Both the position numbers and the translations under genes were made by a program. A DNA stretch of 40,192 nucleotides from a virus: the IMG/VR virus record IMGVR_UViG_3300023548_000003, positions 1-40,192 of that record; one strand, 5' to 3'. Of the stretch, positions 1 to 40,132 are shown one piece after another. Within the stretch, counting starts at the first letter, position 1, and each line of letters starts with the position of its first letter. Under the pieces are notes generated by a model. The model had not been told where the DNA came from. It saw nothing but the letters and a program-made list of their open reading frames with translations, and did no database searches.

Positions 1-2
1 GG

Positions 3-959
3 AACGTAACATATCCCGACTACGCCACAGCCACAGTAGTAGCCGCTGGTGCCATGATGAATGATGCTGGAAAGTATTACTCCACTGCGCTTGGCGGCAC
101 TACAAACGGGGCTACACTCCTCACGGATATTGGTGTTACTGATTGGGTTGAAGAGGGCATCTATTCAGCTAACTTCGGGTTACTTGTTGAGCCGGGAACC
201 ACTAACCTCTACCCGCTACCCGAAGCTGTTGTAACTCAGACCTTCGCCGTTGCTCTTGGTGACAACACTCTATCGGTTACTGGCACAGGCTCACTTCTCA
301 CATCTGACTCTACAGCAGTGAGTACAGGGCACGGCACGGCAACAGAGGGTACTGATGTAACTATCAATGTTACTACTGCCGGAGATATTACCTGCACTCT
401 GACCGGATCACTTACTACAGCACAGATGGAAGCAGGTTCAGTATCAACCTCATTCCATCCATCTATTCGGGCTACGGAAGCAGGGAATGTAAACTGGCCT
501 ATTGCGAATAACTTTAGTAATGCGGCTGGTGTTTGTGTTGTTGATGTCATATTCAGCCAGTCACTTCAGGCATCCCCGTCTTCAAACTGGATGGGCATAC
601 TCACGACATCGAATCTAAACGCAAAGGACTTAATTTATCTCAGGTGGAACTCAGGGGTGATTGAAATCACAGACGGCCTTACTTCCGTTAACGCACCATA
701 CGCATATACCGCAGGTGAAGTGCTAACACTGGCAATTAGATATAGTACCAGTTTGAACGAAATGCAGCTTGGATATAAGTCAAGATCAAAATATGGAGCC
801 TCATTTGTATGGTCTACAACTGTCGCGTATGACGGGAATTTTGTTAATTCTATATTGCGCTTAGCTGTATCAAATGACTTCCCCATAACCTACCGCAACC
901 TCCCACTAATATATGACACTGACATGGATGTGGCTACCATAGAAGGAAAATTCTCATGA
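3..959 (+). CDS. Tail fibre protein, C-terminal part (5' truncated by window edge)
   Basis: The reading frame is open from the first bases of the window, so the first internal ATG (54) is not the real start. The encoded end matches the C-terminal 400 or so residues of the large fibre gene at 37805-40132: the first ~60 residues, a middle block of about 25 residues (TEAGNVNWPIANNFSN) and the last ~20 residues (ending DVATIEGKFS) are the same or nearly so, while the segments between differ completely. The last ~160 residues resemble a LamG/concanavalin-like beta-sandwich, common in receptor-binding tips; that is inference from composition and spacing. The stop overlaps the next ATG (ATGA). If the molecule is circular, this is an alternative 3' end of the fibre gene rather than a separate gene. 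Confidence 0.8.
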   Translation, partial: NVTYPDYATATVVAAGAMMNDAGKYYSTALGGTTNGATLLTDIGVTDWVEEGIYSANFGLLVEPGTTNLYPLPEAVVTQTFAVALGDNTLSVTGTGSLLTSDSTAVSTGHGTATEGTDVTINVTTAGDITCTLTGSLTTAQMEAGSVSTSFHPSIRATEAGNVNWPIANNFSNAAGVCVVDVIFSQSLQASPSSNWMGILTTSNLNAKDLIYLRWNSGVIEITDGLTSVNAPYAYTAGEVLTLAIRYSTSLNEMQLGYKSRSKYGASFVWSTTVAYDGNFVNSILRLAVSNDFPITYRNLPLIYDTDMDVATIEGKFS

Positions 960-1426
960 GTATTAACCTAATAATCACCACCCCAACAAACTTCGACCTG
1001 TCCCTCCCAAAGAAGCCGACCAAAGCACAGCAAGCAGTCCAGGACGCTATCCAGAGCCTTGGCGTGCAATGGCCTGACTCTTCAGTAGGTACAGACGGCA
1101 CAAGTAAGCTGTATATTGTCGTTACTCGCACAGGCGACTTACAAGGGCTTATCGACTTAATCAAGGGCTACGGCCTACCCATAGTTGTAAAGCACGCTCA
1201 GGACTCACAGAAGAGCCTTGTCACTAATAAAGATGGCCCTATTCTGGACGCTGGCGGCAACATGCAATATAAAGTCTTTGTGTATAAGCAGGCTACCACT
1301 GCAGAGCTGCTTCCCTTCATGGCTCCCGTTCGCACTTATGATAAGACGGGCAAGATGCTTTCAGAGAAGCCTGCTACCGTTGTCACTCTGCCACAGTATG
1401 GTGGGCATGAGGCTTGGCAGATATGA
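956..1426 (+). CDS. Hypothetical phage protein downstream of tail fibre
   Basis: A 156-residue soluble protein with no signal peptide or membrane segment. I do not recognise the family. The N-terminal ~20 residues are rich in T, N, P and K, followed by a mixed alpha/beta region. It starts in an ATGA overlap with the fibre gene and ends in an ATGA overlap with the next gene, so it is translationally coupled to both. Genes directly after a fibre are often fibre-assembly chaperones or attached tip proteins; that is a positional guess only. Its first 64 bases recur at the very end of the window (40129-40192). Confidence 0.8.
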   Translation: MSINLIITTPTNFDLSLPKKPTKAQQAVQDAIQSLGVQWPDSSVGTDGTSKLYIVVTRTGDLQGLIDLIKGYGLPIVVKHAQDSQKSLVTNKDGPILDAGGNMQYKVFVYKQATTAELLPFMAPVRTYDKTGKMLSEKPATVVTLPQYGGHEAWQI

Positions 1427-4207: not shown

Positions 4208-5842
4208 TTAAGCCTGCTTCGTTCCGACTTCTACAGGCACATGACTTTCAAGAATTTCTACAAGCTCATTTGCAGCCTGTTCATGGATTGCCCATGCATC
4301 GCACCAGTATGCAACATCCTCCATCAATGTTTTTGGCTGTGCGCTTGCTGGCTTCGCCTTTTGCAGCGGAACAACCTTTGCGGAGCCATGTTCTACTGGC
4401 TCAGGCTTCATATCCTGCCGCTCAGTGAGATTTTCCGCTTCGGTCCGTGTCTTGGCCTGCATTTCCTGCTGAATGCGCTCACGTTCGATTCTGGTGGACT
4501 CTTCGGCTTTCCGCTCTTCCTCCTGCCGGATACGTTCACGCTCTACCTCAAGCCTTGCTTCCTCGGCCTGCTTGTGTTCAGTGATCCTCATCTTAGCCAG
4601 GTTCAACAGGTCTTCACGATCTTTGGTTATGATCTGCTGTAGGTCGCGGAACAGGAACCCATAGTCCCCGGCAATCTCTTTCAGGGCTTTCAGGTTCGCT
4701 TCGATATTGTCGGCAGATTCGTTGGCTTCGATCTTGCAACGTGCAATCTCGGTGTTTACGGCATTCTGCAATGATTCAATAGTACGCTTGTTTTTGATAA
4801 CACCTGCAAAGTCAGGGGAGCAGTCAGGCACTCGCACCCCCTCAACACGCGCGTTCAGCTTGTCCATGTGCTCACTGAATGCGCGGCGTGCCTTTAATAC
4901 AATTCCTTCACGAATTGATTGCTTCTTGGCCTTTACAAGTTTCTCTAATGACAGCCGCTTGGTGCGCATTTCCGCCTTCAATGTGTCGATTATCTTGAAC
5001 AGGTCGGCAATGTCTGATGTCTGGTTCAGTGCAGCCTGTTTTACATCGTCCAGTTCCTTCTCGGTCTTTCCGCAGAACTTCACCATTGCATCTGCATCGG
5101 CAAAGTCCTGATCTGTTTTCAGGTCGGTATTGATTGCCCGGATAAATTTCAGCGCTGATGTTTCATATTCAGTCAGATTTGATTTTGTTACGCCGCCGGT
5201 GATTTGAACATTCAGCGCCGGCAGTGATTCTATTGTTAGTGCCACTGGCTCAACGACCACTTCCTGCGGAGTGTAGTCTGCAAGATCAGCCTGAAACTGC
5301 TCCCAGCCTTTAAGCAGCCGTTCGGCGCGACCCTCAACCGGGTAGTATTCCATGTACTCAAAGTTTTCCTCTGTGCCATCGGAGACAACGAAAATCACCT
5401 TCTCAGCGCCTGATACAAGCAGCTGTTGTTCAAGCTGCCAGTAATAAAACTCTGACATATCATTGTTGCGAACGTCAGCGGCCAGTCTTTCGTTCCACAG
5501 TTTATGCTCATAAAGAATGGTTTCCATCATGGTTACGCCATCGAACGAGGCGAGCAGGTGCGGGTATTTGTCAGATATTGCCGTGATCGGAAAAAACTCT
5601 TCGCCAAACATCCCTTCAACAACCTTCCGTGCTGCGGATTCTGTAGCGTGTCCCCTGTCAAACAGGGCTTGTTGCTCCGGGGTTACTTCCGGTGTGACGC
5701 CAGTCTTAACTTGCCGCATAAGATCGTCGCGTGTCATATATTTGCTGGCCCCCATCATAGCCTGAGCCTCTGATGCTGTGCAGTAATTCTGGCGCAATGC
5801 CAACCACTCTTTGCTGCCTTGCTTTACATCAGTTATTTTCAT
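4208..5842 (-). CDS. YqaJ-type (lambda Exo family) exonuclease with long coiled-coil C-terminus
   Basis: A 544-residue protein. The N-terminal ~200 residues carry the YqaJ/lambda exonuclease PD-(D/E)XK core: GSKEWLALR (9-17), RGHATE (63-68), SFDG with D101, and E112-x-K114. It should digest 5' strands of linear duplex DNA for RecT annealing. The rest (about 260-480) is long charged helix/coiled coil with many R/E repeats, like DUF1351-type proteins normally encoded separately beside phage recombinases; here the two appear fused. ATG 5842 is chosen over TTG 5851 because GGAGG lies nine bases before it. It overlaps the recT stop by 14 bases. Confidence 0.85.
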   Translation of the reverse strand: MKITDVKQGSKEWLALRQNYCTASEAQAMMGASKYMTRDDLMRQVKTGVTPEVTPEQQALFDRGHATESAARKVVEGMFGEEFFPITAISDKYPHLLASFDGVTMMETILYEHKLWNERLAADVRNNDMSEFYYWQLEQQLLVSGAEKVIFVVSDGTEENFEYMEYYPVEGRAERLLKGWEQFQADLADYTPQEVVVEPVALTIESLPALNVQITGGVTKSNLTEYETSALKFIRAINTDLKTDQDFADADAMVKFCGKTEKELDDVKQAALNQTSDIADLFKIIDTLKAEMRTKRLSLEKLVKAKKQSIREGIVLKARRAFSEHMDKLNARVEGVRVPDCSPDFAGVIKNKRTIESLQNAVNTEIARCKIEANESADNIEANLKALKEIAGDYGFLFRDLQQIITKDREDLLNLAKMRITEHKQAEEARLEVERERIRQEEERKAEESTRIERERIQQEMQAKTRTEAENLTERQDMKPEPVEHGSAKVVPLQKAKPASAQPKTLMEDVAYWCDAWAIHEQAANELVEILESHVPVEVGTKQA

Positions 5843-6578
5843 CTGTAACAACCTCCGCGTCGGTTGGAGCGTTTTCCATCTCCGCCTGCTTGATTTTTGT
5901 AATTTGATCCAGGGTGAGTTGTGCCTTGGTGTTAATCATTTTGATTAAATCTTCAGCAGACCTCTTGCCTGATTCGATGGCCAATTGCCATGCTGGGAAA
6001 TTCTTTTTGAAATCTTCATCAGGGTAGTATTCGGGTTCCGCAGGCGTAATATCGACGATGTCCTGTGCCTCTTCGGCAACAGCCAGCCCCTTTAGCAGAT
6101 CCCCGAATGCATCGCGCAATGCGAATGCCCTGGCACGCATCTGGAGCATGCGCTTCGGATACTGTGTCCATGGCCCTTTCTTTCCCCACAGCCCTGCTGT
6201 CTGCGCATCATCTTGTGAGAAGGTTCTGACCTCTTCATCCTGACCCTTACGCTTAACCCGGCATGTGGCTGTCATACGGTTCCCATCAAAGGTTTCTTTG
6301 ACGTATTCGCACTTTGATGAGTTGCGTACTACTGCAACCAGGGCATCACCCCATATTGAAGGCCGGCCATTGATAACTGCTATATTCTGAAGCGCCTGCA
6401 TTGGCTTCAGTCCAATCTCCATACCCATCTGCACGGCCACAAGTACATTGCCAGCCTTGCCTTTATATTCGGGTGGAACCATGTCGCTGTTTGCAATCAG
6501 CTCTGCATAGTCCTGCGCTTCTTTCAGGGTTGTAGGAGCCAGCGAAAACCCCGTTGCCTGCTTCAATTCAGTTGTCAT
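5829..6578 (-). CDS. recT: RecT family single-strand annealing protein
   Basis: A 249-residue recombinase. The central region has the family hallmarks: LVAVQMGMEIGLKPMQALQNIAVINGRPSIWGD (in part), a typical 'G-x-P-x-x-A-x-x-x-I-x-V-x-G-x-P' stretch, and KRMLQMRARAFALRDAF further on. RecT proteins anneal complementary single strands behind an exonuclease; the partner here is the YqaJ gene that overlaps its 3' end. The ATG overlaps the upstream stop (ATGA). The C-terminal ~70 residues are acidic and helical, as usual for the family. Confidence 0.92.
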   Translation of the reverse strand: MTTELKQATGFSLAPTTLKEAQDYAELIANSDMVPPEYKGKAGNVLVAVQMGMEIGLKPMQALQNIAVINGRPSIWGDALVAVVRNSSKCEYVKETFDGNRMTATCRVKRKGQDEEVRTFSQDDAQTAGLWGKKGPWTQYPKRMLQMRARAFALRDAFGDLLKGLAVAEEAQDIVDITPAEPEYYPDEDFKKNFPAWQLAIESGKRSAEDLIKMINTKAQLTLDQITKIKQAEMENAPTDAEVVTDENN

Positions 6579-6862
6579 TTCTTTCTGTCTCCGTTATTAC
6601 GTGATAGGTGTTCATGCCACGGCCTGCCAGCATACCACATGATAATGCGTTCTTCTTCATCGATGTTTTCATCTAGATATGCATCGTGCATCGAATAGAG
6701 CATGCAGCAGATCAGGTTGCCAAGAGATTCGGGGGCAATACTCCCGTTATAATTTGTCGCCTCTTGGATCGCTGCAACAATCTCGCCAGTTGAATCCTTT
6801 AATTGAGCGTGCATGTTCTCGCCGTCTTCAATCCATTCGCGCATGTTTAATGGGCCACACAT
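6575..6862 (-). CDS. Hypothetical protein (95 aa), partner of pentapeptide gene, copy 1
   Basis: A small acidic protein. Its first ~60 residues match the start of the 81-residue gene at 7571-7816; the two diverge after MHDA(Y/H)LD. Here the tail is E/R-rich with WYAGRPWHEH. Its start overlaps the pentapeptide gene by 16 bases, with AGGTAGGA upstream, and its stop overlaps recT (ATGA). No known domain is recognised. The C-terminus of this copy is likely the ancestral form, because the other copy ends in duplicated leader sequence. Confidence 0.7.
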   Translation of the reverse strand: MCGPLNMREWIEDGENMHAQLKDSTGEIVAAIQEATNYNGSIAPESLGNLICCMLYSMHDAYLDENIDEEERIIMWYAGRPWHEHLSRNNGDRKK

Positions 6863-7527
6863 GATTTTCCTACCTCATCAAATATGCCTAAATCTATAAG
6901 TTTTAGTTTCCATTCATTCCACCATTCCAAAGCGCCCCCATCCATTTTTGAGATAGTGTTATCGTCAAATTCAAGCCATTCAGTTTTTTTGTGGCGCTCA
7001 CAGCCGATTTGTAAGTAAGTGTCTGTGTAAGAAATATCATATTTGGTAATATGTAGAGACTTTATTTCTCTGTTATTCCCTCTTGCTCCGTCAAGGTTGG
7101 AACCGGAAAGGTTGCACCCGTCAAGTTTGGCCCCGTCAAGTTTGGCCTTGTAAAGGTTGGCCTTGTAAAGGTTGGCCCCGGAAAGGCTGGCCATGTAAAG
7201 GTTGCACCCGGAAAGGTTGGCCTTGTAAAGGTTGCACCCGGAAAGGTTGGCCCCGGAAAGGCTGGCCCCGTCAAGTTTGGCCTTGTAAAGGTTGGCCCCG
7301 GAAAGGTTGGCCCCGGAAAGGTTGGCCATGTAAAGGTTGCACCCGGAAAGGTTGGCCCCGTCAAGGTTGGCCCCGGAAAGGTTGGCCCCGGCAAGCGAAG
7401 CCCGGTTTTTAACAGCCCATTTAACAGCCATCCCGAGCTTAACTGAGTTTTTTTCAGTCTTATCGCAATCAATTTCAGCTGTAAATTGAATATCACCTGT
7501 ATATCTATTTAATACATTGAATTCCAC
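6847..7527 (-). CDS. Pentapeptide-repeat protein, copy 1 (intact)
   Basis: A 226-residue protein: a ~45-residue head, about 21 pentapeptide repeats of A(N/S/K)L(S/D/Y)(G/K/M) type (about 45-150), then a ~75-residue C-terminal domain with several W and C. Such arrays fold into a right-handed quadrilateral beta helix; some members (MfpA, Qnr, McbG) mimic B-DNA and bind gyrase. A DNA-mimic role against host enzymes is possible but not shown. GTG start with GGAGG nine bases upstream. It sits in a recombination operon, where lambda places its anti-RecBCD gene. A second copy lies at 7801-8527. Confidence 0.85.
   Translation of the reverse strand: MEFNVLNRYTGDIQFTAEIDCDKTEKNSVKLGMAVKWAVKNRASLAGANLSGANLDGANLSGCNLYMANLSGANLSGANLYKAKLDGASLSGANLSGCNLYKANLSGCNLYMASLSGANLYKANLYKAKLDGAKLDGCNLSGSNLDGARGNNREIKSLHITKYDISYTDTYLQIGCERHKKTEWLEFDDNTISKMDGGALEWWNEWKLKLIDLGIFDEVGKSCVAH
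7087..7400. repeat. 15-bp tandem repeat array, copy 1
   Basis: About 21 units of a degenerate 15-base repeat (plus-strand form like GGTTGGCCCCGGAAA) encode the pentapeptides on the minus strand. Because the unit is a multiple of three and rarely contains stops, neighbouring frames also stay open, giving long false ORFs on both strands. Confidence 0.9.
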
Positions 7528-7570
7528 TTGCTTTTTCCTCCGTTCTCGCCGTCTTCAATTTTGTTATCCC

Positions 7571-7816
7571 TTATAAACTGTTGTGGTGTCCGGTGCTGAT
7601 CTCCAGATTCTCTTCCTTACACAAATCCAGGTGTGCGTCGTGCATTGAGTGCAGCATGCAGGTTATAAGGTTCCCTAGAAAGAGTGGACTGATATTCCCT
7701 GAATCGCTTGTGGCTTCTTGAATGGCCTCAACAATCTCGCCAGTTGAATCCTTTAATTGAGCGTGCATGTTCTTACCGTCTTCAATCCATTCGCGCATGT
7801 TTAATGGGCCACACAT
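7571..7816 (-). CDS. Hypothetical protein (81 aa), partner of pentapeptide gene, copy 2 (chimeric C-terminus)
   Basis: The N-terminal ~60 residues match the 95-residue gene at 6575-6862. The last residues (ISTGHHNSL) are encoded by sequence identical, bar one base, to the untranslated leader at 8574-8606, so the C-terminus was replaced when the cassette duplicated. It overlaps the pentapeptide copy 2 by 16 bases. Function unknown; it may be a partial or degenerate copy. Confidence 0.6.
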   Translation of the reverse strand: MCGPLNMREWIEDGKNMHAQLKDSTGEIVEAIQEATSDSGNISPLFLGNLITCMLHSMHDAHLDLCKEENLEISTGHHNSL

Positions 7817-8527
7817 GATTTTCCTACCTCATCAAATATGCCTAAATCTATAAGTTTTAGTTTCCATTCATTCCACCATTCCAAAGCGCCCCCATCCATT
7901 TTTGAGATAGTGTTATCGTCAAATTCAAGCCATTCAGTTTTTTTGTGGCGCTCACAGCCGATTTGTAAGTAAGTGTCTGTGTAAGAAATATCATATTTGG
8001 TAATATGTAGAGACTTTATTTCTCTGTTATTCCCTCTTGCTCCGTCAAGGTTGGAACCGGAAAGGTTGGAACCGGAAAGGTTGGAACCGGAAAGGTTGCA
8101 CCATGTAAAGGTTGCACACGTCAAGTTTGGCACCGACAAGGTTGGAACCGACAAGGCTGGAACCGGAAAGGTTGGCACCGTCAAGGTTGGCACCGGAAAG
8201 GCTGGCCATGTAAAGGTTGGCACCGGAAAGGTTGGCCCCGACAAGGTTGGAACCGACAAGGTTGGAACCGACAAGGCTGGAACCGGAAAGGTTGGCACCG
8301 TCAAGGTTGGCACCGGAAAGGCTGGCCATGTAAAGGTTGGCACCGGCAAGGTTGGCCCCGGCAAGGTTGGCCCCGGCAAGGTTGGCCCCGTCCAGCGAAG
8401 CCCGGTTTTTAACAGCCCATTTAACAGCCATCCCGAGCTTAACTGAGTTTTTTTCAGTCTTATCGCAATCAATTTCAGCTGTAAATTGAATATCACCTGT
8501 ATATCTATTTAATACATTGAATTCCAC
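7801..8527 (-). pseudogene. Pentapeptide-repeat protein, copy 2, frameshifted within the array
   Basis: The GTG start, Shine-Dalgarno, N-terminal head and C-terminal domain match copy 1 closely. The array is longer (about 24 units). One unit near 8096-8111 is 16 bases instead of 15 (GTTGCACCATGTAAAG against GTTGGCCATGTAAAG in copy 1). Reading from 8527, the frame leaves the pentapeptide pattern there and ends at 8045 (160 aa, ending in FRFQP repeats). The correct C-terminal half stays open in the next frame down to 7801. Total length exceeds copy 1 by 46 bases, three units plus one base. It is a broken gene, a frameshift-regulated gene, or a sequencing error. Confidence 0.75.
8042..8400. repeat. 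15-bp tandem repeat array, copy 2, with 120-bp higher-order repeat
   Basis: About 24 units of the same 15-base repeat. Positions about 8132-8226 recur almost exactly at about 8252-8346, an offset of 120 bases (eight units), so a block of the array was itself duplicated recently. Confidence 0.85.
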
Positions 8528-8723
8528 TTGCTTTTTCCTCCGTTCTCGCCGTCTTCAATTTTGTTATCCCTTATAAAGTGTTGTGGTGTCCGGTGCTGAT
8601 CTCCAGTTAAAATGTCGCCTTCCTACTGCGCAGTTGCTAGCTGCCATGCGTAAGTGCATAACTATCTCCAGCTTATCTGACCAATTACGCCTTGCGCCTA
8701 TGGCCTCTCCGCTGACCCCGAAC

Positions 8724-8750
8724 ATTATAGAAGCCAATGCCTTCTGTCAA
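8724..8750 (-). promoter_or_regulatory. Early leftward promoter
   Basis: On the minus strand TTGACA (8750-8745) and TATAAT (8729-8724) are both perfect consensus hexamers but only 15 bases apart, shorter than the usual 17. It would transcribe the pentapeptide/recT/exonuclease operon after a leader of about 190 bases. The -35 box is one arm of the dyad shared with the rightward promoter. Confidence 0.5.
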
Positions 8751-8765
8751 GAGAAAAGATTGACA
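8745..8765. promoter_or_regulatory. Candidate operator dyad between divergent promoters
   Basis: TGTCAA (8745-8750) and TTGACA (8760-8765) form a perfect inverted repeat with a 9-base centre. Each arm is also a -35 box of one of the two divergent promoters. One regulator dimer here could block both operons; the HTH protein encoded just to the right is the obvious candidate. This is inference. Confidence 0.4.
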
Positions 8766-8789
8766 ACGGTAAACATAAGGATTTATGCT
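8760..8789 (+). promoter_or_regulatory. Early rightward promoter
   Basis: TTGACA (8760-8765), 18-base spacer, TATGCT (8784-8789), about 20 bases before the HTH gene at 8811. The -35 is consensus; the -10 matches four of six. Confidence 0.5.
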
Positions 8790-8810
8790 TCGCAACATAA
8801 AGGAGTTACT

Positions 8811-9029
8811 ATGACCATTTGGCAGAAGCGAATCGCAGCATTAAAAGAGAAGGGAATAACGCAAGCAAAGATAGCGAAAGAGGCCGGCTGCACTGATGGC
8901 GCAATATCTCTACTTGCCGACGGCAGCCGTAAAGACCCAAGCTTTCGGATTGGCAATCGAATTGTTGAGTTGTGTGCATTGGTCAGATGCGATATTGAGA
9001 GTATCGACGAGGCGGAAAAGGAGGGGTAA
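8811..9029 (+). CDS. XRE/Cro-type helix-turn-helix regulator (72 aa)
   Basis: A small DNA-binding protein: helices 2-3 of an HTH are seen in the segment ITQAKIAKEAGCTDGAISLLADG (about residues 16-38). ATG 8811 is chosen because AAAGGAG lies seven bases upstream; the longer frame from 8583 would run through the promoter. It is the first gene of the rightward operon and opposite the leftward operon, the place of Cro or a repressor in lambdoid phages. It likely binds the dyad at 8745-8765. No second repressor gene is visible. Confidence 0.8.
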   Translation: MTIWQKRIAALKEKGITQAKIAKEAGCTDGAISLLADGSRKDPSFRIGNRIVELCALVRCDIESIDEAEKEG

Positions 9030-9030
9030 A

Positions 9031-9261
9031 ATGACAGATTCACTGCATGAGGTTTATAGGATTTCAGTTCAAAACAAATTAAAGCGTGCGAGGCGTGAAT
9101 ACAATCAATGCTTTGACGCATATAATAGCCTCATTGATAAAAACACAGAATATGCAGAAGCTTTGAACGCCCTTGCTGGGCACATGGATGGCGTCTGTAA
9201 GATTTGGGGAGATGCCAGCCTCGCAATAAAGAACAGTGAAAAGGAGATCGGCGAAGCCTGA
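9031..9261 (+). CDS. Hypothetical coiled-coil protein (76 aa)
   Basis: The start ATG follows the HTH stop by one base, with GGAGGGG upstream inside the HTH gene. The protein is mostly helical and charged, with two cysteines and one tryptophan. No family recognised. It lies between the regulator and the replication gene. Confidence 0.65.
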   Translation: MTDSLHEVYRISVQNKLKRARREYNQCFDAYNSLIDKNTEYAEALNALAGHMDGVCKIWGDASLAIKNSEKEIGEA

Positions 9262-9262
9262 T

Positions 9263-10084
9263 ATGCACTACTACCGGCATCATATAGGTGATTACCGAAA
9301 AGACACCGGACACCTAAACTTGCTTGAGCATGGCATCTATCACAAATTAATCGAGTGGTATTATCTTGATGAATCGCCTCTACCATCAGACATAAAAGAA
9401 ATACGCAGAAAAATATCAGCAAGAAAAGGAGAAGAGAAAGAGGCCCTTGATAATGTGTTGGCTGATTTCTTTATTTTTACTGATGACGGATACACTCATT
9501 CAAGATGTGAATCAGAGCTAAAAAGAATCTATGATAAGAGCGAGAAAGCACGGTTATCAGCAGAAGTAAGATGGAAGAAAAAGAACGGAAAACATGCGAA
9601 AGGTATGCGAAAGGTGTGCGCTGAGGGTGCTATCGTATTGGATTCCAATGCGGACGCATTGAATTTGGATGCGAATGGCATGCTACCCAAGACCCAAGAC
9701 CCAGTACCGCATGACCCAATATCCATTAACCCACTACCCACTGCAAAGTCAAAACACATTGTCGAGCAAGCACGACAGGTAATCGACATGCTTAACGAGA
9801 TAACAGGTAAATCATTTCGATACACTGATTCACATTTAGCTAAAATTAAATCAAGATTTAAAGAAGGGTATTCACTTGAAGATTTTAGAAAGGTTATTGA
9901 GAATAAAAACAATCAATGGGGATGTGATCCTGAGAAAAAAAAATATCTAAGGCCAGAGACTTTGTTCAGTCCTAAGTTTGATGGCTATCTGAATGAAGGA
10001 AAGGTGACAGAGGAAGATTCATATAAAAACACTGGCGCATATCAATGGCTACAAGAGGAGCGGGAAAATGGTCGAGCAGGATAA
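9263..10084 (+). CDS. Phage replication initiation-type protein (DUF1376 N-terminus)
   Basis: A 273-residue protein. Residues 1-85 match the DUF1376 pattern: Y-x-x-H-x-G-D-Y near the start, T-x-H-L-x-x-x-E-x-G-x-Y, YYLDESPLP and I-x-x-I-x-R-K, a winged-helix-like domain at the front of many phage replication proteins. A low-complexity linker (about 120-165) leads to a C-terminal domain resembling the conserved phage replisome-organiser C-terminus (TGK-F, L-x-x-I-x-x-R, T-L-F-x-x-K-F-x-x-Y-L). It probably binds the origin and recruits a helicase loader. ATG 9263 is chosen over GTG 9236 because family members start near the YY..H motif. Confidence 0.8.
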   Translation: MHYYRHHIGDYRKDTGHLNLLEHGIYHKLIEWYYLDESPLPSDIKEIRRKISARKGEEKEALDNVLADFFIFTDDGYTHSRCESELKRIYDKSEKARLSAEVRWKKKNGKHAKGMRKVCAEGAIVLDSNADALNLDANGMLPKTQDPVPHDPISINPLPTAKSKHIVEQARQVIDMLNEITGKSFRYTDSHLAKIKSRFKEGYSLEDFRKVIENKNNQWGCDPEKKKYLRPETLFSPKFDGYLNEGKVTEEDSYKNTGAYQWLQEERENGRAG

Positions 10085-10688
10085 GCAGCAATTCGCTGAA
10101 ATGATAATTGCCACTATGGAGCTTTATAACAAGCACCCATCAAAGATGGCTATAAAGATGTACTGGAGCGTGCTGGAGCGGTTTTCTATCGAACAGGTAG
10201 AGCATGGCTTGAAGGCGCACCTTAACGACACCGATCAAGGAAAGTTCCAACCGAAGCCGGCTGACATCATTCGCCACATTGAAGGAACGAAAGCAGATCG
10301 CAAGACAGCAGCAGAAGCAGCATGGCGCAAGGTACTGGAGAATGTGCATCGGTACAACTCGGTAGTGTTCGATGATCCGGCTATTCATTATGGGATTCAA
10401 ATCGGGTTCGGGGACTGGTTAGGTGTCTGTAATTTTGTCCCTGAACAGTTTGAATATCAGCAGATGTATCGCTCATTTATCAATGCGTACACAAATTACA
10501 ACGGCCAACCATACCCACCCAGGATGGCTGGGATATATGAATTGGAAGAGGCAAAAGGCGAAACACACTACGAAATCCACTACATCGGTGACAAGCAGAA
10601 AGCGCTTGCTGTTGAGCAGGGCGGCAGGGTCGGTGGCATGTCGGCAGTCAATATTGAAATCCCAAAGGTGCTTAAGGCGGTGGCATGA
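10068..10688 (+). CDS. DUF6475-like phage replication accessory protein (helicase-loader candidate)
   Basis: A 206-residue protein overlapping the replication gene by 17 bases. The N-terminal part (F-x-x-M-I-I-A-T-M-E-L-Y, K-x-Y-W, H-L-x-D-x-D-x-G-K-F-x-P-K-P-A-D-I) matches the DUF6475 pattern seen next to phage replication proteins, in the slot of lambda P. The rest has W-x-x-V and a F-x-x-Y segment. Helicase loading is inferred from position and not shown by a motif; there is no Walker A. Confidence 0.7.
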   Translation: MVEQDKQQFAEMIIATMELYNKHPSKMAIKMYWSVLERFSIEQVEHGLKAHLNDTDQGKFQPKPADIIRHIEGTKADRKTAAEAAWRKVLENVHRYNSVVFDDPAIHYGIQIGFGDWLGVCNFVPEQFEYQQMYRSFINAYTNYNGQPYPPRMAGIYELEEAKGETHYEIHYIGDKQKALAVEQGGRVGGMSAVNIEIPKVLKAVA

Positions 10689-10805
10689 CATGAATATTTA
10701 CACCCCATTTCCATAAGCAAATCTTATGAGAAGCCGAAAAAGCATAACATATAGTGATTGGTATTTTTTGGATGATGGAAGATAATTGGCGGAACGAGGT
10801 GAAGA

Positions 10806-11093
10806 ATGAAGGAATACGTGCAATTTATACATATTAGTAAGCCAAGGGTTTCAACGGGTGCTCACCAGAAGATTAGATCAAATAACAGACTAAACAAGTT
10901 ACTTGGAAAGACGGGGCTTGTGATCGACTCTAAATTTGAAAACAACGAATATATAAAGGAATATATCAGGATAGACTTTGGAGGTTTTGAGAGTGACCCA
11001 AAAAATACAGATGAAATGATGTGGGTTTCAGGAATACAGGAATGGGTGCTTCGGTGCTGGACTCGAAGGGTCGGAGAGGGGGAATTGATATGA
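10806..11093 (+). CDS. Hypothetical protein (95 aa)
   Basis: A basic-to-neutral soluble protein with no recognised motif. It follows a ~117-base gap holding no convincing gene. GAGGTGAAGA precedes the ATG. Its stop overlaps the next ATG (ATGA). Confidence 0.6.
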   Translation: MKEYVQFIHISKPRVSTGAHQKIRSNNRLNKLLGKTGLVIDSKFENNEYIKEYIRIDFGGFESDPKNTDEMMWVSGIQEWVLRCWTRRVGEGELI

Positions 11094-11266
11094 AGTTGTC
11101 TGAAATAGAATACAGAAGGTGTAAATGTGGAATTAAATTTCCTCTAGCGAGCCTGAAATCTCAAAAAAATACAGCCAGCAAAGAAGTGCTGCCTGACGAA
11201 TACGTCGCGCATGAGAATAAAATGTGCCGCCCCTGCATGCATCTGGCTGAGAAAGCCCCGACATGA
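11090..11266 (+). CDS. Small Cys-rich (zinc-finger-like) protein (58 aa)
   Basis: ATG in a 4-base overlap with the previous stop. Two CxC/CxxC pairs (CKC near residue 10, CRPC near 47) could bind one zinc. Basic centre. No family recognised; it ends in an ATGA overlap with the next zinc-ribbon protein, so the two are coupled. Confidence 0.6.
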   Translation: MKLSEIEYRRCKCGIKFPLASLKSQKNTASKEVLPDEYVAHENKMCRPCMHLAEKAPT

Positions 11267-11445
11267 TATCTGAATGCCGCGATTGCGGCGACCTGACCGA
11301 AAACATCGGATCAATCTGCGCTGTGTGCTTGGGTAAACTGCACATGAGGGCGCTGGAGTCGAGAAAGGCCGCTGAAAACCATCGTTTAGGCACGCACAAG
11401 CCCCATGACGGCGTTTTAACTGACCCGGAATGCCTTGATAGATAG
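11263..11445 (+). CDS. Small zinc-ribbon protein (60 aa)
   Basis: CRDC (residues 5-8) and CAVC (19-22) make a compact zinc ribbon, followed by a basic helix with several R/K/H. Such proteins in phage early operons often bind nucleic acid or host polymerase, but nothing here is specific. Confidence 0.6.
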   Translation: MISECRDCGDLTENIGSICAVCLGKLHMRALESRKAAENHRLGTHKPHDGVLTDPECLDR

Positions 11446-11467
11446 AAAGGAGTAAAGGAGGATACAA

Positions 11468-11653
11468 ATGGATGATGAATTGATTACAACACCAGAGGCA
11501 GCCGAGATGCTTGGCGTAAAAGCGCAGACATTGCGGAAGTGGAGAATGTACGGAAAAGGGCCATGTCCTGCAAAACGAACAAAACTTGGATGGATGTATC
11601 ATAAGGCCGATGTGGATGCGTATGAACATGTTGACGATAGGTTTAACAAATGA
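11468..11653 (+). CDS. AlpA/excisionase-type helix-turn-helix protein (61 aa)
   Basis: A MerR-like winged HTH of the HTH_17 kind: TTPEAAEMLGVKAQTLRKWR (residues 7-26) followed by the G-P-x-P-x-R wing and a V-D-A-Y end. Family members are excisionases or small activators. No integrase is seen in the window, so a transcriptional role is more likely. AAGGAG...GGAGG precedes the ATG. Confidence 0.8.
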   Translation: MDDELITTPEAAEMLGVKAQTLRKWRMYGKGPCPAKRTKLGWMYHKADVDAYEHVDDRFNK

Positions 11654-11721
11654 TAGGATCGCCCCATCAAGACAAAAGCCCACCGGAATACGGCAGGCTC
11701 TTGATACGGGTTTCAGCTTGA
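11650..11721 (+). CDS. Possible 23-residue mini-ORF, or remnant of a longer gene
   Basis: ATG in ATGA overlap with the HTH gene. The peptide ends after 23 residues. The following ~60 bases are open in another frame, which runs into the 92-residue gene at 11789, so this stretch may be the broken 5' part of that gene. Weakly supported. Confidence 0.25.
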   Translation: MIGSPHQDKSPPEYGRLLIRVSA

Positions 11722-11788
11722 CGGCGACCCGAATAAGTCGCAAGACTATTCCTTTTCGCTGCCAAATTCAACCCATAGTGGTTTTGTG

Positions 11789-12067
11789 ATGGCGTATCCC
11801 CTAATTATGCTTGAGCGGCCTGAGCAGCCGAATAAAAATGTTCTACGTATGAGTAGTCGTGCAATGGTTAGGCTGCCAGACTATTTTGCTAAAGGGAGCC
11901 GCGTGCCGTTCGCCCATTGCGCCCCATCTGATATGAAGTCCATTATGGATTGTCGGAGTGACGTTATAACACAGCAGGGGTCAGAGTTATTCAGGACTCG
12001 CGTGCAAGGTGCAAAGATTAAGATGCAACCCCGTGCGAGCCAGCCTAGAGGATATAGGTCAAAGTGA
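11789..12067 (+). CDS. Hypothetical protein (92 aa)
   Basis: No good Shine-Dalgarno precedes either the GTG at 11786 or the ATG at 11789, and the frame is open upstream to a stop near 11700, so the true N-terminus is uncertain. The middle has an R-x-S-S-R-A-M-V-R-L-P segment and the C-terminus is basic. Not recognised. Confidence 0.5.
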   Translation: MAYPLIMLERPEQPNKNVLRMSSRAMVRLPDYFAKGSRVPFAHCAPSDMKSIMDCRSDVITQQGSELFRTRVQGAKIKMQPRASQPRGYRSK

Positions 12068-16186: not shown

Positions 16187-16558
16187 GTGAGGGTTGAAGT
16201 CCTGCGTATCCCATGGATTGGCCCCTCTATGAATGTTATCTGGGCTGGGAAGCACTGGAGCCTCAGGAAGCGTATTGCAGACGAGGCTCATTGGGCCGTC
16301 CACGCTGTTGCGCGCGATCTGGTGATGTTTGCCGCGCCTGTCCGACTTGAGTTTACACCGAAGCACAAGGGTAGGCCCTATGACCCAAGCAACTATGCGG
16401 TGACTGTGAAGGCAATCGAGGATGGGCTTGTGATGTCAGGGATTTTACCTGGCGACACAGGTGATAAGATTAAAAGCGTCACAATTCACGCTCCTGAAAA
16501 ATTAAGGGCAGAACAGAGCTATATGCTGGTGAAAATATCGGAGGTGCAAGATGTATAG
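16187..16558 (+). CDS. rusA: RusA-like Holliday junction resolvase
   Basis: A 123-residue protein: I-P-W-I-x-P-S-M-N near the start, V-R-L-E-F-T-P central strand, then DPSNYAVTVKAIEDGLVMSGIL and GDTGDKI, the D-x-x-N...D-x-L...D-D pattern holding the RusA catalytic aspartates (one of the later D pair is partly substituted). RusA cleaves four-way junctions, here serving phage recombination and resolving DNA before packaging. GTG start with GGGAG about ten bases upstream. It follows the methyltransferases and closes the recombination gene group. Confidence 0.78.
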   Translation: MRVEVLRIPWIGPSMNVIWAGKHWSLRKRIADEAHWAVHAVARDLVMFAAPVRLEFTPKHKGRPYDPSNYAVTVKAIEDGLVMSGILPGDTGDKIKSVTIHAPEKLRAEQSYMLVKISEVQDV

Positions 16559-19304: not shown

Positions 19305-19320
19305 CTTTGGTCAGGCTATG

Positions 19321-30483: not shown

Positions 30484-32507
30484 TGGCATCGATAGGAAGT
30501 CTGTTTGTAAAGCTTGGGTTGGATATTCCCGGATTTCAAAAGGATACGAAACGCGCTAAACGCTTGACTAAGCAATTCCGCAATGAATGGAAGCGGGACT
30601 TCAAATCAATGAAACGCTCTGTCTTCTCCTTACAGGGCGCATTAGTTGGCTTGGGTGCGGGCTTAATCTTTAAGAAAATTCTGGACGCAACAGTTGAGCA
30701 AGAAGCGGCTTTCAGGCAGGTGGAACAGGCCATAATCAGCACAAAGGGCGCTGCTGGTCTGTCCGCAAAAGAAATTGCGGCAATGGCTCAGGCGTTGCAG
30801 CACGTCTCCACGTTTGGCGATGAAGCAATTCTTAGGGTTCAGTCTAAGATTCTGACTTTCACGGGAATAGCTAAAGGTAATTTCCAAGCGACTACCGAAT
30901 CCGTTTTGGATATGGCTACGCGAATGCAGGGTGATTTGAATGGGGCTGTTGTTCAGCTTGGTAAAGTTTTAAATGCACCGACGAAAAACCTATCTGCATT
31001 GACAAGGGTAGGCATTCAGTTTACAGATTCACAAATAAAGATGATCAAAGGGTTAGAACGGTCTGGAGATTTAATCGGTGCGCAAAAGATTATTCTTCAC
31101 GAATTGCAGACTGAATTCGGCGGATCAGCAAGAGCGGCGCGTGATACATTTGGGGGTGCATTGCAGGGGCTTTCTAACGCCTTTGGTGATTTGTTAGAGG
31201 GCAAGTCAGGATTAAGAGAAGCAAAAGGCGAGATTGAGAAGCTAACCACTTTATTATCTGACCCTGAAACAATAAAACAAGCGGATAGACTTGTGACCAG
31301 TTTAATCACTGGATTTACAAAGATAGCAGGCGCAATTCCGGAGATCACAAAGGTTATTAATTGGCTATTTAATAATGTAGAAGAGAAAACACCACTACAG
31401 AAACAGATTGATACTGTTAATAGAATGCTTACGGCTCAAAAAGGGATAGTTAAATCCATTATTCAAACTGGATTGCCCGGCCCTGCTGGTGATTTAAAAG
31501 ACTATCAAGACTCTGTCGCCATTCTTAATAGCGAATTGAAGGAGTTACAAGAGCGTCAGAAGTCTTTATCAGCACCACCTGAAGCTCCAGCCGTTAAGCA
31601 AGTCAAGAGTTCAATCCCGAATCAGATTGTTGACCCTAAAGTCGTTGAGCGTCAAAAAATGCAGCTTGACAATCTATTGGCGAATCAATCCGCATTCTAC
31701 GAACAACTTGGATTTATGGCGCAAGATCATTTTGCATCTGATTTGGAGGTTGAGCAGTCGAGATGGGATCAGGAAGCACTCAAAGAAAATGAGAATTTCC
31801 AGAAGGTCTTTGAAGCCAAGGGTATAACGGATGAACAGAAGCGGCAGCTAGAGGCTGATCATTTACAAGCGCTCGAGGACATGCTTTTAATACATGAACT
31901 TAATGTGGCTGATATTCAGGAAAAGGCTGATAATGAAGAGTTTAAAAGACTAAAGGAAAAACATCAGAGAGAAGAGGCTTTAGAAAAAACATTAAAGCAA
32001 AACAAGAGTTCATTATTTAAGGATATGTTCGGCAATTTGGCTGCGATAATGAATACGGGCAATAGAAAAATGTTTGAAGTTGGCAAGGCCGCTGCTGTTG
32101 CGAATACCTTCATTTCGACAATGGAGGGCGCTCAGGCCGCCTATACAGGCATGGTAAAGGCTTTCCCCGGCCCCGTTGGAATTGCTCTTGGCGTTGCTGC
32201 TGCTGGTGCGGCTTATGTGGCTGGTTATGCGCGTGTGAGAGCCATTACATCTACATCCTTTGGGTCAAAGGGCGCAGGCGTTGCGTCTGGTGGCGGTGTG
32301 CCGAATATTGGCGGCGGTGGAAATCCAGTAAAACCCCCGGAAGCAACGAGGGGGGCTGGTATTTCAGGCTCAAACTTTACGATTAATCTGAGCTTTTTAG
32401 ATAAAAGTAATATAACAGCAGATTTACTTGATAATCTTGGCCGTGAATTAGCTTGGCGTATCCATGATCATATTGATTCAGGCGTTAGCAGGGCGGTGAT
32501 TGCATGA
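30483..32507 (+). CDS. Tail tape measure protein
   Basis: A 674-residue protein, nearly all helical with long coiled-coil stretches. Starts M-A-S-I-G-S-L-F-V-K-L-G-L-D, then G-x-x-x-F-K-K-I-L-D, with hydrophobic patches near residues 55-65 and near the C-terminus (A-A-A-V-A-N-T-F-I-S-T-M-E and V-G-I-A-L-G-V-A-A-A-G-A-A-Y-V-A-G-Y), typical of tape measures. The tail length scale suggests about 100 nm by the ~1.5 angstrom per residue rule, an estimate only. Confidence 0.9.
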   Translation: MASIGSLFVKLGLDIPGFQKDTKRAKRLTKQFRNEWKRDFKSMKRSVFSLQGALVGLGAGLIFKKILDATVEQEAAFRQVEQAIISTKGAAGLSAKEIAAMAQALQHVSTFGDEAILRVQSKILTFTGIAKGNFQATTESVLDMATRMQGDLNGAVVQLGKVLNAPTKNLSALTRVGIQFTDSQIKMIKGLERSGDLIGAQKIILHELQTEFGGSARAARDTFGGALQGLSNAFGDLLEGKSGLREAKGEIEKLTTLLSDPETIKQADRLVTSLITGFTKIAGAIPEITKVINWLFNNVEEKTPLQKQIDTVNRMLTAQKGIVKSIIQTGLPGPAGDLKDYQDSVAILNSELKELQERQKSLSAPPEAPAVKQVKSSIPNQIVDPKVVERQKMQLDNLLANQSAFYEQLGFMAQDHFASDLEVEQSRWDQEALKENENFQKVFEAKGITDEQKRQLEADHLQALEDMLLIHELNVADIQEKADNEEFKRLKEKHQREEALEKTLKQNKSSLFKDMFGNLAAIMNTGNRKMFEVGKAAAVANTFISTMEGAQAAYTGMVKAFPGPVGIALGVAAAGAAYVAGYARVRAITSTSFGSKGAGVASGGGVPNIGGGGNPVKPPEATRGAGISGSNFTINLSFLDKSNITADLLDNLGRELAWRIHDHIDSGVSRAVIA

Positions 32508-34522
32508 CAACTGACTACCCTCTGATCGCTTGGGATAACCATTTAGCATTTAGTGACCCTGCCCTGGATTCATGCGTGCTTGATTGGCCCTTGACTGAGT
32601 CAATAACTCCGAACATTGGAAGCGGCGCGTCCTTTACCCGTGCCACAACTGCAACTTATATTGATATTGTAGACAGGTTAGTGAAAACCGCTGCAATAGA
32701 TACGGCGCGATTTGAACGCGCGGCGGATGGTGGCCCTGCGTTATTACATGAAGGCACAAGCACAAATTTGGCCCTTTATTCTGAGCAGTTTGATAATGCG
32801 TGGTGGAATAAAACAGGCGCCGCTATTACAGCTAACACAACATCTGCACCGGATGATAATCTGACTGCTGACTCTCTAATCGAAGACACAAGCACCGGAA
32901 GGCACAGGGTATCAAAAAGCACGCTCTTGACCGCTGGCGACAATTCACTTTCAGTATTCCTTTCAGCAAATGGCAGGACACAGGTTAGCCTTGAGTTATT
33001 CAATTCAACAGATGGCACTATAGCTGAAACTATCTTTGATTTAGCCACAGGTACTATAACCAGCGCCATATCCGGCACATCTAAGATTCAGTCTGTAGGG
33101 AATGGATTCTACCGTTGTTCAGTCTCCGGCACTTCCACGGTCGCAACGGGCATATTTATTCAGCTTTATGACGGCTCATCAATATCATACACGGGGGATG
33201 GTAGTTCGGGTGTCTATATTTGGGGTGGGCAGGGCGAAGACTTAAGCGATTCAACATCTTATATTCCTACTACTACAGCATCAGCTGCCAGAGCGCGTGA
33301 TAATTTAACTCTAACTGATGTGGGTGATTTACCTGAGCATGATCATCAGGGCGCTACAATTGTAATGGAATCTGATTTAAGTCTGGTGAATTCCAATCAG
33401 GATTTAATGGCTTCGGTTGGACGTAATTACAATTATACGATGAGAGTAACGTCTGCTGACGCATATACAGCATTCGCTGGTGATTTAAACAGTACCGCTG
33501 CAATAACAATACCCGATCGGACAAAGATGGTCAGATATGAATATGTTTCCGATGGTGTGAATGATTGGGGCCAAATCAACGAAGCATCGACAATCGGCAC
33601 AACTGGAACCACTGGAACGTCCACGGGAACCATTACCTCAATAAATATATTTGCATTTTCGGCGGGCACAAATGAAGCTTATGGGCATCTTCGTAATATC
33701 AAGATTTACAAACGGCCTCTTTCTACCTCTGAGTTTCAAAACCGAAGGGGATGGGTTTCGATTGATACGGGTGTGGAGTCTGCTGGTGGTGAAATCACCG
33801 AGGCTGCAACATGGGATACCCTTAAACCTGCAATTGTTGATGCTGATGAGTTTGGAATAATTGGAATTATTTTATGGGCTTATGGTGACGCACCGGATTT
33901 ATTGATAGTCGGGGCACACAAGCATGATTCCACCGGGTTCAGATTCGATCAAGGCACTGTAAGCGCATATTCAACAGGGCCGTTGGGCTCAGGTGCTTCA
34001 GTGATTTTGGTTGGAACAAAATCCATGGCCGGGAATAGAAATGATCCGGTTCTGATTAAGCTGGCCGATATTTCTACATACTCTCCCTATACTTCAGCAG
34101 GCGGCAGAATCTATAGAATTGAATTTACAGGGCTGGCTCCAAACGAGACATATGTCATCCCTGAGTTATTTTTTGGTAAAGCCTTGGAATTGCCACCAAT
34201 GGATTATAATTATGATGAGTCTTTAGAAGAGTGGAAAGGTGTTTCATTTACTGCTGAAAATGGCAGAATTTATGAATCGGCTTTAAGTCGTAGATACAAA
34301 GCTGATCCGGTATGGGGAGTGTTGCCGGAATCTTATGCGGCTGCAATTGAAACATTCAGGGAAGAGCATTTAGAGGAGCGTCGTCCATTCTGGTGGGCAT
34401 GGCGACCTGATACCTATGATACTCAAGTGTATTTGATGCATCATAATGCGCGAACGGCTCCTATGCCGCGTGATACGATGGCCTATAGGCATTTTAGGTT
34501 GCCTATGATTGAGTCAGTATGA
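32504..34522 (+). CDS. Tail protein with carbohydrate-binding-like N-terminal modules and distal-tail-like C-terminus
   Basis: A 672-residue protein. Residues ~45-270 are a module very similar to one in the tail fibre at 37805: F-T-R-A-T-T-A-T-Y, L-L-H-E-G-T-S-T-N-L, L-Y-S-E-Q-F-D-N-A-W-W, G-N-G-F-Y-R-C-S-V-S-G, S-Y-I-P-T-T-T-A; then a LamG-like domain to about 420 ending in the I-Y-K-R-P-L-S segment. The C-terminal ~200 residues (L-E-E-W-K-G-V, F-W-W-A-W-R-P) look like a distal tail protein. The module is probably a surface adhesin grafted onto the tail tip. Overlaps the tape measure by four bases. Confidence 0.75.
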   Translation: MTTDYPLIAWDNHLAFSDPALDSCVLDWPLTESITPNIGSGASFTRATTATYIDIVDRLVKTAAIDTARFERAADGGPALLHEGTSTNLALYSEQFDNAWWNKTGAAITANTTSAPDDNLTADSLIEDTSTGRHRVSKSTLLTAGDNSLSVFLSANGRTQVSLELFNSTDGTIAETIFDLATGTITSAISGTSKIQSVGNGFYRCSVSGTSTVATGIFIQLYDGSSISYTGDGSSGVYIWGGQGEDLSDSTSYIPTTTASAARARDNLTLTDVGDLPEHDHQGATIVMESDLSLVNSNQDLMASVGRNYNYTMRVTSADAYTAFAGDLNSTAAITIPDRTKMVRYEYVSDGVNDWGQINEASTIGTTGTTGTSTGTITSINIFAFSAGTNEAYGHLRNIKIYKRPLSTSEFQNRRGWVSIDTGVESAGGEITEAATWDTLKPAIVDADEFGIIGIILWAYGDAPDLLIVGAHKHDSTGFRFDQGTVSAYSTGPLGSGASVILVGTKSMAGNRNDPVLIKLADISTYSPYTSAGGRIYRIEFTGLAPNETYVIPELFFGKALELPPMDYNYDESLEEWKGVSFTAENGRIYESALSRRYKADPVWGVLPESYAAAIETFREEHLEERRPFWWAWRPDTYDTQVYLMHHNARTAPMPRDTMAYRHFRLPMIESV

Positions 34523-37535: not shown

Positions 37536-37808
37536 ATGGTAGCAGATACTACAATTGATGGATTTATTGAATCGGCAGATATGCCAGCAGATGATGCGGA
37601 AGTAGTTGTTCCTCATGACACCACGAACTTGGCCAAAACATCCCGCGCCCTTTATGTGGGAGTGGGCGGCGATGTCTCGGTTGAGATGGCCGGTACAGGC
37701 TCTGCAATAGTATTCACTGGCGTATTGGCCGGAACAGTGTTGCCCATCCGTGTAACACGGGTGAATGCAACTGGAACCACTGCTACAAACATGGTTGCTC
37801 TGTCATGA
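37536..37808 (+). CDS. Small structural protein, spike-base (RCAP_Rcc01079)-like
   Basis: A 90-residue beta protein with the pattern D-D-A-E-V-V-V-P-H-D-T-T-N-L-A-K-T-S-R-A-L-Y-V-G and G-x-I-V-F-T-G-V-L-A-G-T-V-L-P-I-R-V-T-R-V-x-A-T-G-T-T-A-T-N-M-V-A-L. Matches small 'spike base' proteins of gene transfer agents and phages that hold fibres on the virion. AAGGAG upstream. The stop overlaps the fibre ATG (ATGA). Confidence 0.75.
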   Translation: MVADTTIDGFIESADMPADDAEVVVPHDTTNLAKTSRALYVGVGGDVSVEMAGTGSAIVFTGVLAGTVLPIRVTRVNATGTTATNMVALS

Positions 37809-40132
37809 AGTTGGGAATTAATCTGTCTATCACGGGTGGGTTGATGGCACGTATTGCACCGAAGTTCCACCCGCTAATCACAACTTTAGTCAACCAGTTC
37901 GGCGGTGATTCAGCAGGCGTAGCTATCAGGAATAGCACGGGTACATTCAAAGTGTATGATAGTGTTGCAGGCTCAATTCTCAAGACTGCTGCTATTGATG
38001 AGCATAGGCCAGAGGGGCATCGTGAGGTTGTTAATCTGCTGAGTTATCCAGAGGACTTTAGTAATGCTGCTTGGGCGAAAACACGAGGAACCCTTACAAC
38101 AGGGATCAGTGATCCTGACGGGGGCAATAACGCATTCACATGGACATCCAGCGCATCGGCAAATGGTGACTTAACACAGTCGGTTAGCATGACGGGTGAT
38201 GCCCGTGTGAACATATGGCTGCGTCGTAGAACGGGCACAGGTGATGTGTGGATTTTCTCAATGGGCACCACACAACTAGTTACGCTAACCTCCTCATGGC
38301 AACGATTTTCTGTGCTAGAGGTAGGCACAGTAGGGGGCGCTACTGGAGTCAGGGTTAACGCTGCACTTGACGCTATTGATATTTATAAGCCAATGGCGGA
38401 AGACGTAACAGGCATGGGCAACCAGAACCCTAGTGAGTATGTAGCTAAGGATACTGCTACTGGTGCAGAGCTTGTTACTAATGGGACGTTTGATGCTGAT
38501 ACGGATTGGGCGAAAGAGGCGGGCTGGACGATTGCTTCTGGAGTTGCAACATCCAATGGTGTTGTAAATCCCTACTTGACAGAGGTTGGGATACTAGAAG
38601 TAGGTAGAAAATACATAATCACCACTGAGATTAAAAGGCTTGCTTCAGGAAGTTATAGAGGTTACGCGGGGACGAACTTCGCTGCCCTTCCAGCGAGCTT
38701 AGGAGTGCATGCGGTATTGGTCACATGTGCTGGCACAGGCGACCTCCGCATCCGAGCGATTACTGCTGATGGTGACATAGACAATGTTTCAGTCCACGAA
38801 GCCACAACAGGCCGCCAGATATTCACCACAACCAACGCCAACACAGTAGCAGCCAATGTAGTCACAGAAGCTACAGGCGTTCCCCTATTTCCTACCAAGA
38901 CAATAGACACAGCCGTATGGAACGTAACATATCCCGACTACGCCACTGCCACAGTAGTAGCCGCTGGTGCCATGATGAATGATGCCGGAAAGTATTACTC
39001 CACTGCATTAGGCGGTACTACAAACGGGGCTACACTCCTCACGGATATTGGTGTTACTGATTGGGTGGAAGAGGGCATCTATTCTTCGGGATTCGGGTTA
39101 CTTGTTGAGCCTGCTGCTACTAATCTGATGACATATAGTGAGCAGTTTGATAATGCGGCTTGGACAAAAAGTAATGTGACGATAACGGCTGATGATATTG
39201 CGGCTCCCGATGGTTCTACTACATCAGATAAACTGGCTGCTACTACCACAGCTGGCAATGTGTATGCGAGCAACAGTCTCTCTGCTGTAAAATACTCGCA
39301 AGGTGTTTTTGCTAAAGCAGGAACAAATACTACGTTCAGGCTTGACTTCGTGACTAGTGGGTTCGGAGAAGGCGGACAGGTAGTTTTCGACCTGTCCGCA
39401 GGCACGGTAGGCACAATAACTAACAGAGGAGGAACTACAGATACTACAGGCACAATAGAGTCATTTGGAAACGGTTGGTATAGGTGTTCAGTATCATTGA
39501 CGGCCACTGCCGGAACGTACTTCACCCAGATATTCCAGACATCTATCGGATATATCCACGCATGGGGCGCACAACTAGAAGCAGGCTCAGTCCCAACATC
39601 CTACATCCCTACAACCACAGCAGCCGTTACAAGGGCTACGGAAGCAGGGAATGTAAACTGGCCTATTGCGAATAACTTTAGTAATGATGCTGGTGTTGTG
39701 GTGTTAGATGTTGTGTTTAGTCGTGATAAATATGTACCGAGCGTAAACCAGAGGCTATTTTCTACCGATCCTGTCACAACTGGCGGCAATGGTTTAAACG
39801 TGCATTTGTCAGCACCAGGTACAGGTAACATACGCGGGTATGACGGAACAACCGTGTCAGATAATCCCATTGCATATATAAAGGATAGATGCTATCGAAT
39901 AGCTTCTCACTGGAATGCTGCAACCAGTAAAATGCAAATAGGCGTACTTGACCTTAGCACTTATGGAGCATCGTGGGTGTGGAGCACAGAGGTTGCCTAC
40001 GATGGGGCTTTTTCTACTGTCACTTCGATTTTGCTTGCAACTATATTTGAGCAACCGCTCACATTCCGCAACCTCCCACTAATATATGACACTGACATGG
40101 ATGTGGCTACCATAGAAGGAAAATTCTCATGA
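37805..40132 (+). CDS. Tail fibre/receptor-binding protein (multi-module)
   Basis: A 775-residue modular fibre. After a ~75-residue head come repeated carbohydrate-binding-like modules: about 76-205 (N-L-L-S-Y-P-E-D-F-S-N-A-A-W), about 220-340 (G-A-E-L-V-T-N-G-T-F-D-A-D-T-D-W), a linker with I-T-D...Y-P-D-Y-A-T-A, about 435-600 (N-L-M-T-Y-S-E-Q-F-D-N-A-A-W, close to a module in the protein at 32504), then a LamG-like domain to the end. The C-terminal ~400 residues are an alternative form of the fragment at 3-959. It probably sets host range. The stop overlaps the next ATG. Confidence 0.82.
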   Translation: MKLGINLSITGGLMARIAPKFHPLITTLVNQFGGDSAGVAIRNSTGTFKVYDSVAGSILKTAAIDEHRPEGHREVVNLLSYPEDFSNAAWAKTRGTLTTGISDPDGGNNAFTWTSSASANGDLTQSVSMTGDARVNIWLRRRTGTGDVWIFSMGTTQLVTLTSSWQRFSVLEVGTVGGATGVRVNAALDAIDIYKPMAEDVTGMGNQNPSEYVAKDTATGAELVTNGTFDADTDWAKEAGWTIASGVATSNGVVNPYLTEVGILEVGRKYIITTEIKRLASGSYRGYAGTNFAALPASLGVHAVLVTCAGTGDLRIRAITADGDIDNVSVHEATTGRQIFTTTNANTVAANVVTEATGVPLFPTKTIDTAVWNVTYPDYATATVVAAGAMMNDAGKYYSTALGGTTNGATLLTDIGVTDWVEEGIYSSGFGLLVEPAATNLMTYSEQFDNAAWTKSNVTITADDIAAPDGSTTSDKLAATTTAGNVYASNSLSAVKYSQGVFAKAGTNTTFRLDFVTSGFGEGGQVVFDLSAGTVGTITNRGGTTDTTGTIESFGNGWYRCSVSLTATAGTYFTQIFQTSIGYIHAWGAQLEAGSVPTSYIPTTTAAVTRATEAGNVNWPIANNFSNDAGVVVLDVVFSRDKYVPSVNQRLFSTDPVTTGGNGLNVHLSAPGTGNIRGYDGTTVSDNPIAYIKDRCYRIASHWNAATSKMQIGVLDLSTYGASWVWSTEVAYDGAFSTVTSILLATIFEQPLTFRNLPLIYDTDMDVATIEGKFS

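Follow-up and report, generated by a model that had tools for sequence, protein, structure and literature searches.

The 40,192-nt window, i.e., the whole stretch of DNA analysed here, most probably represents a circular assembly of ~39.17 kb (about 39,173 bp) that ends where two alleles of a tail-fibre gene merge. The virus is a phage from an environmental sample. Both alleles (A at the start of the contig, B at its end) would be present in one population at one locus, and would be swapped via homologous recombination. The initial annotation had proposed that positions 1-1019 and 38919-40192 are one locus. Self-comparison and global alignment bore this out, with coordinates correct to the base and with the shared blocks in the same order and frame (Table 1).

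Self-comparison gave three shared blocks: block 1 is 93% identical over 193 bp (E 2.6e-80), block 2 is 94% identical over 79 bp (E 1.2e-27), and block 3 is 100% identical over 127 bp (E 3e-62). Global alignment of the two ends indicated that the inserts between the blocks differ in length and have no DNA similarity. In the same alignment the terminal exact match was 127 nt, with a mismatch immediately upstream (892/40065). Seven of the nine differing codons in block 1 are synonymous, and the two non-synonymous ones are both at the inner edge; the two copies are therefore real, constrained coding alleles and no sequencing noise. The proposal that the fibre exists in two forms is supported by the shared blocks around unrelated inserts, and by the same pattern in two unrelated phages (G009 and G019, see below), in which conserved blocks also flank the swapped modules as had been suggested for this phage.

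Table 1. Coordinates of the fibre locus, the paralogous tail protein and the recombination genes in the window.
Feature	Position	Strand	Remarks
Fibre allele A, truncated 5' by contig start	1..892	+	ORF 3-959, 318 aa, start codon not within contig
Shared block 1, A copy	1..193	+	93% to 38919-39111; encodes NVTYPDYATA...GLLVEPxxTNL
A insert 1, short Ser/Thr/Gly-rich module, about 75 aa	209..468	+	No family match
Shared block 2 (hinge), A copy	469..547	+	94%; encodes RATEAGNVNWPIANNFSNxAGV
A insert 2, variable C-terminal domain	557..892	+	Weak similarity to C-terminal domain of B
127-nt exact merge node (block 3), first copy	893..1019	+	Fibre C-terminus, stop codon, first 64 nt of next gene
Downstream gene, 156 aa	956..1426	+	No family match; start inside shared 127-mer
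RecE-like exonuclease, YqaJ domain	4208..5851	-	
RecT-like single-strand annealing protein	5829..6578	-	
RusA-like Holliday junction resolvase	16187..16558	+	
Second tail protein, same module family (PHROG 5939), possible internal donor	32504..34522	+	Self-comparison, family match
Small tail-fibre protein, PHROG 12296	37536..37808	+	Directly upstream of fibre
Complete fibre gene, allele B, 775 aa	37805..40132	+	ORF, family match
Shared block 1, B copy	38919..39111	+	Self-comparison
B insert 1, carbohydrate-binding-type jelly roll, PHROG 5939	39127..39632	+	Related to RcGTA head-spike fibre, E217/Pa193 fibres
Shared block 2, B copy	39633..39711	+	Self-comparison
B insert 2, variable C-terminal domain	39721..40065	+	Alignment with A
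127-nt exact merge node (block 3), second copy, contig end	40066..40192	+	Alignment

The length of the terminal match is informative, as the k-mers in commonly used settings of SPAdes, a short-read assembler, go up to 127. Among records of this collection that carry the same fibre module, genuine circles overlap at their ends by exactly 127 nt (G022 and G046) or 141 nt (G024), which indicates that 127 is an assembler k-mer length; others close with 123 or 49 nt. The exact terminal overlap in the window equals an assembler k and comes directly after a mismatch, as expected if a circular phage assembly contains an allelic bubble. Strain variants of a circular phage are known to form bubbles in the assembly graph, where contigs terminate (Phables, PMC10563150). 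The present case would be alike in that the paths of two variants part and meet again, with the contig ending at the meeting point, but it is read from a single finished contig through a one-sided 127-nt overlap. The genome is that of an HK97-type siphophage, and the contig would be one lap of its assembly graph: it would start in allele A, cross the A/B rejoining point at 893-1019, run through the rest of the genome, return through allele B and stop at the same rejoining point. Because the circular assembly ends at the merge point, both alleles appear to have coexisted in one sample. Position 1 has no 127-mer in common with allele B (exact match of 28 nt only), and to explain the contig start one must assume either a third allele or a gap in coverage on the 5' side of A. 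The record was classed as "linear" because its first 127 nt do not match its last 127 nt. The genome is nevertheless probably circular and complete, and a single contig thus gives access to the two receptor-binding alleles of one wild phage.

The initial annotation left the choice between a mixed population and a spare fibre tip in tandem. The mixed population is favoured by the overlap of exactly one 127-mer and by a shared tail that enters a non-fibre gene. A tandem arrangement, in which two fibre genes (or fibre and next gene) lie in the order B then A and were left unjoined by the assembler, has little probability, even though at least two adjacent module-bearing ORFs were found in 28 of 79 related loci. 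One such locus (L071) carries five adjacent module-bearing fibre-like ORFs (5755-11927) with a 64-nt exact repeat at the ORF junctions, and in G019 a neighbouring gene (138/141 aa) is also found at both ends, at 77% DNA identity. A tandem second fibre is unlikely here because the shared tail, identical over all 127 nt, runs through the first 64 nt of the unrelated downstream gene, and no second copy of that gene was found within the 40,192-nt window. In the L071 array, by contrast, what follows within the repeat is the beginning of another fibre ORF. Read pairs would normally bridge a repeat of only 127 nt, and a two-copy model leaves the contig start unexplained. No adjacent complete fibre ORFs were found at the locus within the contig.

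Equally improbable is a chimera, in which allele A derives from a different phage that shares a 127-mer by chance at the fibre end and the assembler wrongly extended the contig backwards. Allele A is traceable only to position 1, with the backbone 5' of it outside the contig, and fibre modules do move between unrelated phages. However, the three blocks, which are 93-100% identical in DNA and agree in order and reading frame, argue that A is an orthologous allele of the locus. The chimera and the merging of two alleles from one population differ only in the extent to which the genome of A matches outside the fibre. A programmed switch inside a single genome, driven by a diversity-generating retroelement or by an invertase that swaps tips, would account for two tips in a clonal phage but is very improbable, as the genome gave no family match to a resolvase, reverse transcriptase or integrase, no template copy of the tip elsewhere, no A-specific (adenine) substitution bias, and no long inverted repeat at the locus. 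The retroelement was rejected for lack of a reverse transcriptase and a template repeat, and an invertase-driven tail-fibre switch for lack of a serine/tyrosine recombinase match and an inverted tip cassette.

Homologous exchange, either between co-infecting phages or with the paralogue at 32504-34522, is likely the most economical route to the two fibre alleles, because RecE/RecT-like recombinases are encoded and no invertase, integrase or reverse transcriptase was detected. The phage also encodes a NinB gene beside the RecE-like, RecT-like and RusA-like genes. It was reported previously that RecT/RecE-type pairs recombine DNA at 78% identity (De Paepe et al. 2014, PMC3945230), as compared with 93-100% identity in the shared blocks described here. 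The tips would be exchanged by homologous recombination across the shared blocks between co-infecting phages or prophages, with assistance from the phage's own RecE/RecT-like proteins; the paralogous tail protein may serve as an alternative donor within the genome. This scheme resembles the exchange by Rad52-like phage recombinases (PMC3945230) in its phage-encoded RecE/RecT-type pair and its short, diverged homology blocks, but here it is proposed from the genes and sequence blocks.

We compared the locus with 54 further IMG/VR records carrying the same fibre module. In G009 (33,320 bp) and G019 (39,333 bp), both unrelated to this phage, the first 127 nt are repeated exactly within the module-bearing fibre gene at the other end; the repeat is followed by divergence and then by later shared blocks (ends L200/L201 for G009 and L202/L203 for G019), and the modules are swapped at the same protein boundaries. 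Protein alignments indicated that the three A/B pairs are built alike. The shared edge, which ends in EPxxTNL, is followed by a differing module; next come a hinge common to both alleles, around AQxExGSxxTS...TRxAD/E, and a differing C-terminal domain. A shared tail follows the C-terminal domain in this phage and in G019, where both C-termini are complete, and G019 has an additional, earlier swapped stretch before the EPxxTNL edge. In all three fibres the non-homologous inserts begin and end at domain boundaries and are flanked by conserved blocks, as expected of a receptor-binding fibre with swappable tip modules.

Swapped inserts at one-sided overlaps were found only in this phage, G009 and G019. 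The idea that all one-sided overlaps sit in fibres was rejected: the overlaps of G040, G042, G033 and G051 are collinear, SNP-like and located elsewhere, and broken circles are therefore not confined to fibres. Module-bearing genes were enriched at contig ends (9 within 500 bp vs. 2.6 expected; n=49; KS p=0.005; the records are not fully independent). Near-identical flanks with different fibre inserts were also found in the closely related pairs L034/L048, L011/L027, L032/L034 and L009/L010; the inserts of L034/L048, L011/L027 and L009/L010 lie around 76-290-bp blocks. It is a tentative and somewhat doubtful idea that unrelated phages share a standard pair of protein "sockets" on either side of the exchangeable module (EPxxTNL in front of it, AQxExGS...TSxI...TRxAD/E behind it), that tips are traded across distant phages like plug-in cartridges, and that one-sided k-mer overlaps in "linear" records are the trace of such trade in one sample. 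Publicly available viral contigs could be screened with the one-sided k-mer signature for natural fibre alleles, with two further cases among the 54 other records. Another record, G038 (56.5 kb), carries a 2,688-bp terminal overlap (1-2688 vs. 53847-56534; L411 and L413) at 99.8% identity, i.e., an unrecognised, almost closed circle.

A and B are most likely alternative tips of one tail fibre. Allele B would present a carbohydrate-binding-type jelly roll plus a C-terminal domain, and allele A a shorter module plus another C-terminal domain, with the conserved blocks around them being the same. Residues 431-610 of allele B, its long module, are predicted to form a beta-sandwich/jelly roll (pLDDT 94-98). 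The module resembles the fibre domains of Pa193 and E217 in fold (E 1e-11) and the RcGTA head-spike fibre in sequence (E 7e-22), which places a known carbohydrate-binding-type domain in the B insert. The RcGTA head-spike fibre (PDB 6tb9) and the fibre domains of Pseudomonas phages E217/Pa193 (8env, 9b45) are homologous to residues 426-617 of allele B, but they belong to other particles with other hosts. The RcGTA head-spike fibre binds wild-type cells, whereas binding to a capsule-less mutant is only about 4% (PMC10218006). The receptor of phage E217 is the O-antigen, recognised via its fibre (PMC10329688). The allele A insert gave no recognised relative or family match in viral contigs, phages and family searches, and its structure prediction (pLDDT 33) was an unusable model; a function for it is suggested by its position.

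Both tips may be retained since they would bind different surface polysaccharides, and an effect of the swap on host range is plausible. Host-range switching had been put forward in the initial annotation; polysaccharide binding by the module family in a solved relative agrees with it, but the genome, in which resolvase, reverse transcriptase and integrase families had no match, gives no indication that a single genome can switch. In uncultured phages that co-occur and are otherwise almost identical, tail-fibre and carbohydrate-binding genes are hypervariable, the tips more than the N-termini ("metaviromic islands"; Mizuno et al. 2014, PMC3909814). The present locus is similar in that a tail-fibre gene varies at its tip. 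The islands were detected by under-recruitment of reads, whereas here two assembled alleles are found at the ends of one contig. Swapping of receptor-binding modules is a known, common route to vary cell binding, and this phage is a new example.

No close relatives of this phage were found among viral contigs, phages and bacterial genomes, and the downstream gene has no relatives in viral contigs or phages. The best terminase match was to Marinobacter phage AS1 (59.5%). A search for the host via terminase or portal in bacterial genomes gave no close match, the portal matches being too broad. The pair of small tail-fibre protein (PHROG 12296) and fibre is also present in L006, L039, L019-21 and L081. 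Elsewhere in the genome, a gene pair is present twice in tandem at 6575-8496 (minus strand). Each copy ends in a pentapeptide-repeat protein (6847-7527 and 7801-8496), and an exact repeat of 293 nt (6822/7776) points to a recent duplication. Two adjacent DNA methyltransferases, both of PHROG 67, are encoded at 14306-15061 and 15361-16053. A 49-nt direct repeat (17632-17680 and 19317-19365, 96% identical), each copy of which ends at ATG, is possibly a repeated regulatory leader.
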